Below are positions 3,476 to 7,857 of a DNA stretch of 64,000 nucleotides, piece after piece. The position numbers and the translations under genes were made by a program. How positions within the stretch are numbered: position 1 is the stretch's first letter; every line of letters begins with the position of its first letter. This DNA is from Hydrogenobacter sp. T-8 (lineage in GTDB: Bacteria; Aquificota; Aquificia; Aquificales; Aquificaceae): contig NZ_CP048795.1 of NCBI RefSeq assembly GCF_011006175.1, forward strand, positions 1,666,491 to 1,730,490, given 5' to 3'. The notes beneath the pieces were generated by a model, which had not been told where the DNA came from, did not search any database, and saw only the letters and a program-made list of their open reading frames with translations.

Positions 3476-3958
3476 ATGAAGTTCCTTACCCAAGAAGAGC
3501 TCATAGGGTATGTGTCAGAAGGTATAGCCAGCGTGGGGGGAGAAAGGGCATACAAGACTTTTTATAGGCTATGGCAGGAGCTAAAGGGTGTTCATCCAGT
3601 TGTGGCCATAGAGAGGGTGGTAAGCTACGCCTTTGATAGTGCTGGGCATGTGCTTATTAACCATATAGGAAGGAGGATTGCCAAAGAGAAGTGTGAGAGC
3701 GTTAGCCATGTGCCCTTGCAAGAAGGTGTTTTGTTTGTGGAGCTTGCCAACTGCCCAGTGCACGAGCTTTCACAGGAGCTGAGGCCCACCGAGGCGGTAG
3801 TCTGCTCCCTTTGTAGAGGTTTTATGGAAACATTGGGAGAAAACATGAAGCTGGGTCATCTTAAAGAGGTGAGCTATATAGAGGGAAGATGCACTTTTGT
3901 TTACGGAGGTGTAGCCTATGGACATGATAAGCTACAGGCTCAAGGAGCAGGAGCTTGA
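3476..3958 (+). CDS. V4R-like small cysteine-containing protein
   Basis: Soluble 160-residue protein, no signal peptide or membrane segment. Cysteines lie at 73, 93, 110, 113 and 139. The C-terminal layout (ANCPV, then VVCSLCRGFMETLGE, then EVSYIEGRCTFVY) resembles the end of V4R (4-vinyl reductase) domains, which bind small ligands or metal through such Cys. V4R is related to Bet3 of the TRAPP complex, which works with small GTPases, and here the gene opens an operon with a Ras-like GTPase. A sensor role is inference. TTTAGGAGGTG precedes ATG 3476. The next gene overlaps its end by 41 bases, so translation is probably coupled. Confidence 0.5.
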   Translation: MKFLTQEELIGYVSEGIASVGGERAYKTFYRLWQELKGVHPVVAIERVVSYAFDSAGHVLINHIGRRIAKEKCESVSHVPLQEGVLFVELANCPVHELSQELRPTEAVVCSLCRGFMETLGENMKLGHLKEVSYIEGRCTFVYGGVAYGHDKLQAQGAGA

Positions 3959-4367
3959 GGAGATAACTAAGAGGCTCCAAGAATACAAGAACTCCCTCCT
4001 TTTAGACCTTGTGGTGCTTATGGACGACGGAGGAAGGCTTGTGAGCTTTGCTCCATATGTGGATAGCTATAAACCCATAGCCCAAAGGGTTGCACTCGTG
4101 GGTGCGGCGGTGGTGGGTGCGGTGGACCAGCTTGAGCATGTAATATCCTCCAAAAAGAGCATGTTCTTCTCAGGACAGGAAAAGAACATGTATGTGCATA
4201 TGTTAAGCCACAAGTTTATGTTAGCCTCGGTGTTTAATCATAAGGTCCCCCTGGGAAGCGTAAAGCTCTTTAAGGAAAAGCTATCAAGGGAGTTGACCAC
4301 ACTTTTGGAAAATGCCCTTGCAAGAGGTGAAAGCAGGGTAGTAAGGTTTGAGGACTTGGCTCTATGA
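3918..4367 (+). CDS. Roadblock/LC7-domain protein, MglB-like
   Basis: 149 residues, soluble. The core LLDLVVLMDDGGRLVSF is followed by a Gly/Ala-rich helix (RVALVGAAVVGAVDQLEHVI), a second strand pair and a final helix, which is the roadblock/LC7 fold. Such proteins (MglB in Myxococcus and Thermus) act as GTPase-activating or adaptor dimers for MglA-type GTPases, and the gene directly downstream encodes one with a 4-base ATGA overlap. The start is ATG 3918 with GGAGGT 7 bases upstream. The fold assignment is good, but the GAP role is inferred from context. Confidence 0.75.
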   Translation: MDMISYRLKEQELEEITKRLQEYKNSLLLDLVVLMDDGGRLVSFAPYVDSYKPIAQRVALVGAAVVGAVDQLEHVISSKKSMFFSGQEKNMYVHMLSHKFMLASVFNHKVPLGSVKLFKEKLSRELTTLLENALARGESRVVRFEDLAL

Positions 4368-4891
4368 CATTACGCATCCTATACCACGGGCTTGGTATGG
4401 CAGGAAAGACCACGAACCTTGAAAAACTGCGTGAGATATATTCCGATTATGTCTCAGACAGAATCCATCAGCAAACTTCTGAAGGCAGGACCGTATACCT
4501 TGACATACTGTCTCTCAGCATAAAGACCAGGTCTGGAGATAAGGAAATAGGCGTTGAGCTTTTTACTACGCCAGGTCAAGAGAGGTTCAGAATCTTAAGA
4601 AAGTGGATATTTGGTCGCGTGGATGGTCTCGTGCTTGTGCTGGACTCTACAAGAAGCCTTGAGGAAAACCTTAGGGCTTATGAGGAGGTCAAAGAATACG
4701 GACTGAGCGGTGTGCCAATGGTGCTTCAGCTAAATAAACGAGACGTAGGAAACCTAAGTCCAGAGGAGGTAAGGGTGGCTTTTGGCGATGTTCCTCTCAT
4801 GGAAGCGGTCGCTATTGCGGGCATGGGTGTGGCGGAGACCTTCAGGGCAGTCCTTAAGGAGGCTTTGAATGCAAAAGCTACTGCTGGCTAA
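4364..4891 (+). CDS. Ras-like small GTPase, MglA family
   Basis: 175-residue cytoplasmic GTPase. The P-loop is GLGMAGKT (9-16). A variant switch II, FTTPGQERF, has TTPGQ at 68-72, where Ras has DTAGQ. The guanine-specificity motif is NKRD (124-127). These match the prokaryotic MglA class, which sets cell polarity and controls motility machinery in other bacteria. The overlap with the roadblock gene upstream and with the zinc-ribbon gene downstream (23 bases) argues for a functional unit. Its output in this organism is unknown; the EAL-GGDEF gene in the same operon suggests cyclic di-GMP signalling. Confidence 0.85.
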   Translation: MTLRILYHGLGMAGKTTNLEKLREIYSDYVSDRIHQQTSEGRTVYLDILSLSIKTRSGDKEIGVELFTTPGQERFRILRKWIFGRVDGLVLVLDSTRSLEENLRAYEEVKEYGLSGVPMVLQLNKRDVGNLSPEEVRVAFGDVPLMEAVAIAGMGVAETFRAVLKEALNAKATAG

Positions 4892-6107
4892 CCAAAGCCT
4901 AAGGTTAAAGCCCTTATATGGACCCTTTCACAGGGATATGTTGAACATATCCTGGCTACTTGAGTCTATCAAAAGCTCTCTAAGAAATGGATACTTCATG
5001 TTTCAGTCCCTTGGGGAGCTTCATTTCCTGCCTGCTTTTGATGGAAAGCCAGAGGGAGAGTTTCCACAGGACTTTGAGCTTGTTAGCTTTTATCAGTCCA
5101 CAGAGAACTTCCTCATACACGCCTTTGACCTTTACGAGAGACATAGACTTCCCCTCTACAGCGATAGACCCCTCTGGGTTAACTTGGAGAGCATAAACTT
5201 CAACATAAGGGAGTTTTTCAAGAAACTTCTGGATTTTGAGGTAACGGGCTACATGGTGGTGGAAAACAGGGTAAAGCTCGTAAAAGGTTTGCTCTTGCTC
5301 CAGAAGGGTATGGTCATGAAGGTGGATTATGCAAACCTCAGAGGAATGGATGCTCTCAAGAGCCTTCTTGAGGACCTTAGCAAGGATGTGTGCATTCTAA
5401 GGGTATATGAGCTGTCTGAGGAGCTACTATCTATAATGCTTTCAGAGCCAGAGCTTGCTGGCGTCTATCAGGACTACGAAGCTGTCCCGCTTAAGAGTAT
5501 AAGAGGAACAGCCCTTCTTGTGAGTGTTTCTGCGGAGAAATACGGCTACAAGGTATACCTGCAAGGAGAAGAGGTCTACTCAGAGGGCTTTGAGGAAGAA
5601 GCACCCTTTTATGAGCTCTTTGTGGTTGGCACGCCACTTTCAGAGCCACTTGATGTGCTATCCATGATAGAGGGAGGCAACAAGCTCAGAGTAGTAAAAT
5701 ACGACCTAGAACATCCCATTCTCTACTTTTGTCCAGCCTGCTGGAGCGTGATTTCCAAAGATGACAAGGTATGCCCAAACTGCGGTTATGACCTTACAGA
5801 GTTTCACAACCTCCCCTACGAATATAAGCTCATAATGGCTTTGGAACACCCTGTCAAAGACATGAAAAAGAACGTCATATATACCATAGGCAGGAAGGAC
5901 TTGGAAATTGCCCTGCCACACTTTGAGCTTATGATAAGCAGAGAAACAGACCCCCTTATACTTATGGAGATAGCGGATGCCCTTGCGAGAATGAGTTCAC
6001 CTGAAGCCATAAGACTTTTGAGGGAACTTGCCCAACACAGATATCCGGTGGTTCGCTCAAGGGCTCTCATGCACCTTCAAAGGAAGCTTAAAAATGCTAC
6101 AGAATGA
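4869..6107 (+). CDS. Unrecognised protein with zinc ribbon and C-terminal HEAT-like helices
   Basis: 412 residues, soluble. Residues about 115-220 contain a G-rich alternating segment with some likeness to PATAN/DUF4388 domains, which often accompany roadblock proteins and GTPases (weak). A four-Cys zinc ribbon is clear: CPAC at 288-291 and CPNC at 302-305. The last 80 residues are helical with HEAT-repeat character (LMEIADALARM, then SPEAIRLLRELAQ). ATG 4869 has AAGGAGG 7 bases upstream and lies inside the GTPase gene. The zinc ribbon plus HEAT part suggests a docking protein. No enzymatic motif was seen, and I do not recognise a named family for the whole. Confidence 0.6.
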   Translation: MQKLLLANQSLRLKPLYGPFHRDMLNISWLLESIKSSLRNGYFMFQSLGELHFLPAFDGKPEGEFPQDFELVSFYQSTENFLIHAFDLYERHRLPLYSDRPLWVNLESINFNIREFFKKLLDFEVTGYMVVENRVKLVKGLLLLQKGMVMKVDYANLRGMDALKSLLEDLSKDVCILRVYELSEELLSIMLSEPELAGVYQDYEAVPLKSIRGTALLVSVSAEKYGYKVYLQGEEVYSEGFEEEAPFYELFVVGTPLSEPLDVLSMIEGGNKLRVVKYDLEHPILYFCPACWSVISKDDKVCPNCGYDLTEFHNLPYEYKLIMALEHPVKDMKKNVIYTIGRKDLEIALPHFELMISRETDPLILMEIADALARMSSPEAIRLLRELAQHRYPVVRSRALMHLQRKLKNATE

Positions 6108-7857
6108 GCTAAAAAGCTCTTTGGGAAAGGAGTTTTTCTCAAAGCTGAAAATAGAACCATACTACCAACCCATAGTTGACCTAACTGGCTCGTCGGTCTT
6201 TGGCTACGAAGCTCTCAGTAGATTTTTGTTGGATGGTGTTCCCATGAAACCTATAAGGGTGTTCAAAATGGCGGAAGGGCTTGGAATTCTGCCAGAGCTT
6301 GACCTTATGTGTAGAAAGCTGGCAATAGAAGCCTTTTCAAAGGGTCTGAAGGGTCAGCTTTTTATAAACATCTTCCCAGCCTATCTGGTGTCTGAGTATG
6401 TGGGGAAGGGTCATACGCTTACCTTCCTTCAGCAGATGAAACTCAGCCCTTCAAGTGTGGTGCTGGAGCTTAACGAGGCGGTAAAGGTGCAGGATATGAG
6501 CCTTCTTAAGAAGGCAATAAAATACTACAGAGATCTTGGCTTTGGAATAGCCATAGATGATATAGGCACTGGTTTTAACTCTATACACAGTTTGTTGGAG
6601 CTTGAGGGGCTGTTAGACTATGTGAAAATACCCAGGGAGCTTGTGGATGGTGTTTCAAAGAGCAAGATAAAGTATAACCTAATAAAGGTGCTTTCTGATG
6701 TGTGTGCCAGCATAGGAGCAAAAGCCATCTACGAAGGCTTGGAAAAGGAAGAGGACCTTATGACCATATACTATGATTTTAACGCTCAGCTGGTGCAAGG
6801 TTTTTACTTCTCAGAGCCTATTCCCGTCCAAAGGGCAAAGGAGTATAGCCCTTCTGTAAACCTTCCAAAAGAGTGTGATGGCAATTGCCTGCATGGTAGG
6901 AGGTTGCAAGAATTAAAACTTAGTCCTTCAGAGAGGTTTTACCACTTCCTTGAGTGTGTGGAAGGTTTAATGGAAAGGTATGTGTTGCTGGAAGTGGAAG
7001 ATAAAAGGTATTTTGTGGACCTTTGGAAACTCAAAAGCCAGCTTGATAGCAGGAGAATAAACCTCTATTACTACAAAGAGCTAAAAGAGGTTATAAGCAA
7101 GGAAAGGGACATCTTTTTGGAGCTTCATAACTTGCCAACGATAAGGTCGGATGCCACAGATATCAGGAACCTCTTTGATTTGGTAACTAACTCAAGGAAG
7201 GAGGTCTTTCTTTTGATGGAAGGTGATAAAGTAAAAGTGATTGAAAGGCACACCTTACTTGACCATTTTTCCAAAAGACTTGCCAAAGAGCTTGCCAACG
7301 TGAACCCCCTCACACACCTTCCCGGCAACAGGGTTATAGAGGAGAAGATAAAGCGTTTTAGCTCCACGGTGGATGAATTCTGGGTTTGTTATATGGACTT
7401 GGACAACTTTAAGGCTTTCAATGATGCCTACGGCTTTTATGCAGGAGACCAGATGATAAAGAAAGTGGGGTTTCTTCTTGAGAACTTTCGCAAGGAAAAC
7501 CCTGACAGGGTCTTTGTGGGACATGTGGGTGGTGACGATTTTGTTATCCTGCTTTGGGACATGAGTTTAGGGGAAGCAAAGGAGAAACTTTTAAAACTCT
7601 TGAAAAACCTACAGGAGAAACTCCTTGAGTTTTACAGCCCTGAGGACAGAAAAAGGAGCTACTTTGTGGCAAGGGACAGGGAAGACGAACTAAGGGAGTT
7701 TCCTATCGCCTCAATCTCTGCAGTTCTTTTAAGAGGCTCCCCAGACCCCCTTGACATTTCCAAAAGGTCCGCCCAGCTAAAGAAAAAGGCAAAGTCCTAC
7801 AGAGGAAGCGTCCTTTTTGTGGAGCATCTTAACGAAATCTTAACAATTAACCTGTAA
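6094..7857 (+). CDS. EAL-GGDEF cyclic di-GMP signalling protein
   Basis: 587 residues. An N-terminal EAL domain (about 15-250) has the signature YEALSRF (EAL at 39-41), N92, DDIGTG (155-160), K178, E214 and QGF (235-237), so phosphodiesterase residues look kept. A middle region of about 170 residues precedes a GGDEF domain with GGDDF at 479-483, so a cyclase is possible. There is no obvious RxxD inhibitory site. NPLTHLPGN before the GGDEF core is typical of EAL-CBS-GGDEF proteins. The reversed order (EAL first) and lack of membrane segments point to a soluble regulator. The longest frame begins at TTG 6028, but ATG 6094 has AAAGGAAG at the right distance. Confidence 0.85.
   Translation: MLQNELKSSLGKEFFSKLKIEPYYQPIVDLTGSSVFGYEALSRFLLDGVPMKPIRVFKMAEGLGILPELDLMCRKLAIEAFSKGLKGQLFINIFPAYLVSEYVGKGHTLTFLQQMKLSPSSVVLELNEAVKVQDMSLLKKAIKYYRDLGFGIAIDDIGTGFNSIHSLLELEGLLDYVKIPRELVDGVSKSKIKYNLIKVLSDVCASIGAKAIYEGLEKEEDLMTIYYDFNAQLVQGFYFSEPIPVQRAKEYSPSVNLPKECDGNCLHGRRLQELKLSPSERFYHFLECVEGLMERYVLLEVEDKRYFVDLWKLKSQLDSRRINLYYYKELKEVISKERDIFLELHNLPTIRSDATDIRNLFDLVTNSRKEVFLLMEGDKVKVIERHTLLDHFSKRLAKELANVNPLTHLPGNRVIEEKIKRFSSTVDEFWVCYMDLDNFKAFNDAYGFYAGDQMIKKVGFLLENFRKENPDRVFVGHVGGDDFVILLWDMSLGEAKEKLLKLLKNLQEKLLEFYSPEDRKRSYFVARDREDELREFPIASISAVLLRGSPDPLDISKRSAQLKKKAKSYRGSVLFVEHLNEILTINL

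Follow-up and report, generated by a model that had tools for sequence, protein, structure and literature searches.

Five overlapping genes in the chromosome of Hydrogenobacter sp. T-8 raise the question of whether a small GTPase switch and a cyclic di-GMP enzyme can belong to one signalling pathway, as an earlier sequence-only reading of this DNA had proposed, with a V4R-like ligand sensor as the input. The window, i.e. the whole stretch of 64,000 nucleotides that was analysed, comes from a complete chromosome of 1.81 Mb (G000), and the five ORFs lie on its + strand: A at 3476..3958 (160 aa), B at 3918..4367 (149 aa), C at 4364..4891 (175 aa), D at 4869..6107 (412 aa) and E at 6094..7857 (587 aa). 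The A-B, B-C, C-D and D-E overlaps are 41, 4, 23 and 14 bases, and these values and the outer limits of the operon (3476 to 7857) agree exactly with the sequence-only reading. The start of B (MDMISY...) is common to its homologues and, hence, the 41-base A/B overlap is real. Upstream of A is a divergent gene that we take, from its sequence alone, to be tRNA nucleotidyltransferase-like. A phosphate-binding protein gene (pstS) and a pst-like cluster begin 32 bases 3' of E, and the operon may run on from A-E into these genes for phosphate transport; G006 and G012 have another set of pst genes as the neighbour. A scan of the locus for promoters and terminators gave matches not above chance expectation.

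All five ORFs are conserved and under purifying selection. When the genes were compared with those of the closest relative, G013, dN/dS values (NG86) were 0.24 for A, 0.08 for B, 0.18 for C, 0.07 for D and 0.09 for E; the dS of A, of D and of E is saturated (above 1.8). Gene A is constrained yet the fastest-changing of the five, its product sharing 46 % identity with the G013 counterpart compared to 73–89 % for those of B to E. The contrast between A and the adjoining B and C (approximately 89 %), together with dS values that vary strongly between adjacent genes, may hint at recombination. The reading frame of D is broken in G010 and G080 and there is a stop codon in C of G004, from which the module appears to be dispensable in some lineages, though sequencing error is possible.

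Among 136 Aquificota genomes, C-type GTPases (at least 46 % identity, E-value below 1e-40) were found in 20, spanning two families, and in every one of the 20 D starts at the end of C, with an overlap or a gap of a few bases, which excludes chance. Homologues of E (E-value at most 1e-35, those from across families being taken by this threshold alone) were present in 18 genomes and adjoin the module in 13 of these, in one of three layouts: B-C-D-E, D-E with B and C missing, or E-B-C-D. E lies directly after D in eight members of the genus and in three g11 genomes that have neither B nor C (G023, G036 and G081), and precedes B in G056 and G057 (family f3). The order E-B-C-D is also seen in G110, which is outside the 13 as only the end of E is on the contig. 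Pieces of E lie at contig ends in G004, G005 and G008, and decay of E in the last of these was considered and set aside for this reason. E is found without D in G082 (E near a contig end) and in G128, a member of another family with a full-length homologue sharing 35 % identity and no B, C or D beside it (L175 5555-7324). Nine genomes of two other genera, g7 and g10, keep B-C-D with no E at the threshold used and, thus, E is not obligatory. D without a C-type GTPase is found in G001, in the g11 genomes and in fragments. In G001 the stretch from the nucleotidyltransferase gene to D contains a 100-residue ORF in place of A, B and C (L043 7149-7503), and D and E remain. Because D always accompanies C, and the D-E pair outlasts the loss of B and C (g11 and G001), D is the strongest candidate for the link between switch and enzyme and is likely to be the hub of the module. 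Only one genus has all five genes together. The expectation that the five genes would be found together in relatives was borne out for B-C-D(-E), while A is not kept outside the genus.

The product of B matches the NCBIfam MglB model at 4e-8, below the strict cut-off of that model, and MglB in the PDB at 3.9e-6 over residues 13–138, and Pfam Robl_LC7 does not reach it. B directly precedes C in the loci examined, and the MglB sequence match and the adjoining GTPase gene place B in the MglB/roadblock group. The label of roadblock protein, given to B previously, therefore stands, and B is supported by sequence as an MglB-like protein and the putative GAP/GEF of C. The description of C as a Ras-like GTPase is also upheld. 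It matches Pfam Ras at 2.4e-9, and its closest solved structures are those of MglA (9.9e-23 for T. thermophilus and 1e-21 for M. xanthus, the MglA range extending to 1.2e-21), the next-best PDB relative being the Rab-type GTPase Ypt7 at only 6e-7. C contains the P-loop GLGMAGKT, the switch-1 sequence GRTVYLD, the PGQ glutamine in TTPGQ, and NKRD, features that together with the structure matches make it MglA-type; the P-loop, PGQ and NKxD are kept in all of the relatives of C listed. In Group 1 MglA an Arg is next to the G2 threonine and G3 is TVPGQ, and in Groups 2–5 these are Thr and GTPGQ (PMC4316618). C has the Group 1-type Arg (GRTVYLD), but G3 is TTPGQ or STPGQ throughout the clade, and its motifs fall between those of Group 1 and of Groups 2–5.

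Three further MglA-type modules are found in the G000 genome, with partner sets that are all different. One (L094 3773-6830) consists of a roadblock protein, a GTPase, an unassigned protein and a Tll0287/HAMP sensor, and is beside flhA-like genes; the second (L171 5464-9410) of a GTPase, a DUF4388-like protein, a response regulator and a putative sensor gene; and the third (L098 5410-7070) of a roadblock protein, a DUF4388/TrmB-like protein and a GTPase with GTPGQ. This variety of partners suggests a general plug-in design.

D, the putative adaptor or effector, contains a zinc ribbon (FCPACW...VCPNCG, 5727..5795, + strand, residues 287–309; Zn_ribbon_3, 3.5e-6) whose four CPxC...CPxC cysteines are invariant in 15 relatives, followed by HEAT repeats (5829..6077, + strand, residues 321–403) that match HEAT_2 at 1.9e-8, over the cut-off, and are helical in the AF2 model. 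The region ahead of the ribbon (5196..5453, + strand, residues about 110–195) shows a weak resemblance to DUF4388, which we take to be the PATAN domain. DUF4388 was matched in 7 of 15 D members, with a best value of 3.3e-4 and the Pfam cut-off not reached among the members listed, and DUF2226 in 10 of the 15 at the same place, always below the Pfam cut-off. The DUF4388-like stretch is at the same position, approximately residues 99–173, among the members listed, and in the AF2 model of D (pLDDT 82) this part is alpha-beta-beta-beta-alpha-beta. D had no significant match to the single PATAN-like proteins of the G000 genome. When Foldseek was run with the model, only the HEAT half was recognised, with HEAT/alphaRep proteins at a probability of 1.0; sliding-clamp matches to the N-terminal half were rejected as weak (TM-score about 0.1, E-value above 0.01). 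The zinc ribbon and HEAT repeats noted in the sequence-only reading are thus confirmed, but the product can no longer be called wholly unrecognised, given the weak PATAN-like region. When single genomes from each of 84,980 species were scanned, full-length D was found only in the Aquificota and matches elsewhere were to the ribbon/HEAT part only, though the scan relies on short conserved peptides and distant relatives can escape it. The named relatives are from Aquificaceae, Thermocrinis, Hydrogenobacter, Hydrogenobaculum, Sulfurihydrogenibium and Hydrogenothermaceae. The G000 genome also encodes a stand-alone zinc-ribbon/HEAT protein of 124 residues that shares 35 % identity with the C-terminal half of D (L181 2773-3147); short proteins that resemble it are found in other Aquificota, and there are ribbon/HEAT matches in Chloroflexi (L071, L072).

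E consists of an EAL domain (6142..6819, + strand, residues 17–242; Pfam 2.4e-36), a middle region and a GGDEF domain (7297..7617, + strand, residues 402–508; Pfam 2.6e-15). By what is generally known of residue roles in these enzymes, the EAL site has the full set expected for catalysis, namely the EAL Glu, Asn, the second Glu, the DD pair, Lys, the EGxE Glu and Gln, in the window and in the genus. The sequence-only reading had called both sites apparently intact. This holds for EAL, but in the second domain the signature is GGDDF, not GG[DE]EF, in all 12 relatives of a 12-member alignment, and the RxxD I-site, sought in the same alignment, is absent. E is most likely to be chiefly a cyclic di-GMP phosphodiesterase, regulated by its own GGDDF domain.

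A encodes a small protein with conserved cysteines (PT...VCSLCxG...EGxCxF) and is a putative ligand-binding sensor. Its orthologues within the genus share 31–46 % identity and precede B in seven genomes, the window counted; the copy is strongly diverged in G012 and disrupted in G004, and there is none in G007. An A-related gene adjoins B in divergent orientation in another genus (G079), and distant homologues, unlinked to the module, are found in G027, G062 and G063. A is mostly genus-specific, fast-evolving and dispensable. The V4R label is not borne out by direct searches with A itself. Searches of Pfam and of PDB sequences gave no match, the V4R profile (PF02830) found nothing in A or its orthologues even at E-values up to 10, and the A-family profile compared with 22 Aquificota V4R proteins scored at the level of shuffled columns. 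The distant homologues, alone or pooled with the A family, beat all 150 column shuffles, which are a permissive null, with HHalign probabilities of only 4–14 %, and one of them reaches V4R at a weak E-value of 0.034. Foldseek with the structure model of A, which is of low confidence (pLDDT 64), gave H-NOX proteins as the top four matches at E-values of 0.08–0.4 (not significant), and Bet3-Trs31 at rank 27 with an E-value of 5. The H-NOX fold is related to TRAPPC3/V4R (PMC10933270), and V4R/TRAPP-Bet3 proteins (PMC2253512, PMC10933270) are, like A, small and single-domain with a Cys-rich C-terminal motif similarly placed, but for A there is no significant sequence or fold match. Hence, a divergent V4R-type fold is possible, by way of a weak in-register link through distant homologues, and not established. 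Three unmistakable V4R genes are located elsewhere in the G000 genome.

The recurrent linkage of the switch, D and E supports a single signalling pathway, though a shared gene neighbourhood is linkage and not interaction. In the pathway that we favour, the MglB-like B would set the nucleotide state of C, and GTP-bound C would work through the PATAN-like/zinc-ribbon/HEAT adaptor D, which would control E or position it at a cell site. E would then alter the local level of cyclic di-GMP, and with it how the cell surface behaves (type IV pili or envelope glycans). A would be a fast-changing input, probably one that recognises a small molecule or a membrane ligand, with B/C as its target. Gene order, conservation and the families to which B, C, E and the C-terminal part of D belong are established; the interactions, their direction, the sensing by A and the output are inferences. 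We consider it close to an even chance, and a little short of one, that A-E is one signalling module of this kind, in which the switch reaches cyclic di-GMP via D. Counted in its favour are the C-D adjacency in 20/20 genomes, E adjoining the module in 13 of the 18 genomes with E and in three layouts, D as the gene common to both halves, the structure matches of B and C, the complete EAL site, the pil and PilZ genes of G000, pilT-pilC after D in G027, and the action of cyanobacterial PATAN proteins on the pilus motor. Counted against it are the nine B-C-D genomes without E, the sub-cut-off PATAN match, the weak V4R kinship of A, the restriction of the pilT-pilC neighbour to a single genome, and the possible pstS extension. 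The earlier claim of one pathway is thus supported in its core, but not for the full set, which is limited to one genus and from which A is missing or replaced in several genomes.

It is less probable, and on balance unlikely, that B-C-D has the pilus motor, or some other machine of the cell surface, as its direct target, with E locally recruited and largely independent, working in parallel with no direct step from switch to enzyme. The nine genomes that have B-C-D and no E would fit this arrangement, as would G027, in which a PilT-type ATPase gene and a PilC-type (T2SSF) gene are directly after D (L047 5653-9802). In cyanobacteria, PATAN proteins, PixE among them, bind the pilus motor PilB1 (PMC7690835), and Myxococcus MglA influences pilus formation through effectors (PMC11255338) and is reported to stimulate pili via an adaptor (PMC7519303). 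These findings make a pilus output of the module plausible, also for the one-module reading. However, E keeps its place beside D after B-C loss and is linked to the module in three different arrangements, which suggests a functional contact between D and E. The G000 genome itself encodes pilB, two pilT genes, pilC, two PilZ proteins and seven EAL domains over the cut-off, and has the same pilT-pilC pair away from the module (L095 5327-7665). Some of the names of flanking genes are our own assignments from sequence. That the module is a general part of a pilus operon was rejected, the pilT-pilC adjacency being confined to one genome.

The strictest version of the pathway, in which a V4R/TRAPP-like sensor directly regulates MglB/MglA and the GTP-bound switch directly toggles the cyclic di-GMP enzyme via D, all within one operon, is improbable. 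Signalling in the reverse direction is distinctly improbable too. Here E, or its GGDDF domain as a receptor, would report cyclic di-GMP or GTP to D and tune the GTPase cycle, similar to RomR/CdgA and MglA in Bdellovibrio, where a degenerate GGDEF receptor is tied to the MglA hub (PMC3983030). The invariant, non-canonical GGDDF is consistent with such a role, as is the disturbed localisation of MglA on loss of a diguanylate cyclase in Myxococcus (PMC11255338), but the complete EAL site points to an enzyme more than to a receptor alone. An alternative to a pilus output is a glycan cluster, as in Hydrogenobaculum and Hydrogenothermaceae the module adjoins two glycosyltransferases, a DUF2334 protein and acyltransferases, but control of envelope glycan/lipid synthesis instead of pili, with cyclic di-GMP or D acting on the nearby glycosyltransferase/deacetylase/acyltransferase genes, is very doubtful, since neither the window nor the genus has this cluster next to the module, and elsewhere it is mostly convergent and in another operon. 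The cluster is conserved and was seen by the module in two families (L054 3106-8092, L055 1755-6740, L050 10735-16767 and L176 2521-6958).

The one-module reading matters because the coupling of bacterial small GTPases to outputs is known in few systems. The published links between MglA and cyclic di-GMP that we found, physical or genetic, involve genes scattered in the genome; here the two pathways are joined by gene order. With D as a clear candidate for the connector and natural variants in which either half is missing, the coupling lends itself to a direct test.

No description of the exact five-gene set was found in the literature searched, mostly without subscription papers, and to that extent the earlier statement that no such system had been described holds. 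It does not hold for the parts. Comparative genomics has placed PATAN proteins in the vicinity of MglA/MglB and has recorded an operon in which a small GTPase accompanies a diguanylate cyclase/phosphodiesterase fusion (PMC4316618), and MglA is linked to cyclic di-GMP in Bdellovibrio (PMC3983030) and Myxococcus (PMC11255338). The Aquificae are already recorded with MglA of Groups 1 and 5 (PMC4316618), the groups that have PATAN neighbours (PMC4316618, citing Makarova et al. 2006). Those MglA/MglB-PATAN modules likewise bring together an MglB-like roadblock protein, an MglA-like GTPase and a PATAN-like protein, but here D has a zinc ribbon and HEAT repeats in addition, the operon also includes an EAL-GGDEF enzyme and a sensor-like gene, and the GTPase has TTPGQ, not TVPGQ or GTPGQ. 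The neighbourhoods of the Group 1 Rup GTPases (PMC4316618) differ further: Rup is without the catalytic Gln, whereas C keeps PGQ and is from another GTPase family, and the Rup partners are coiled-coil and membrane/OmpA proteins instead of roadblock and PATAN. In the Bdellovibrio MglA-RomR-TPR-CdgA hub (PMC3983030), an MglA network is physically tied to a cyclic di-GMP protein at the pilus-bearing pole, but the genes are not in one operon, MglB is missing, and CdgA, a degenerate GGDEF receptor, is not an EAL enzyme. The actinobacterial conservons CvnA-D (PMC4316618; PMC13343842) are likewise operons for a sensor, an MglB-type roadblock protein, an extra protein and an MglA-type GTPase; their sensor, however, is a histidine kinase, the extra protein is CvnC and there is no cyclic di-GMP enzyme. 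Hence, the A-E pathway would be a new combination within a class that is broadly known, the pairwise couplings having already been reported.
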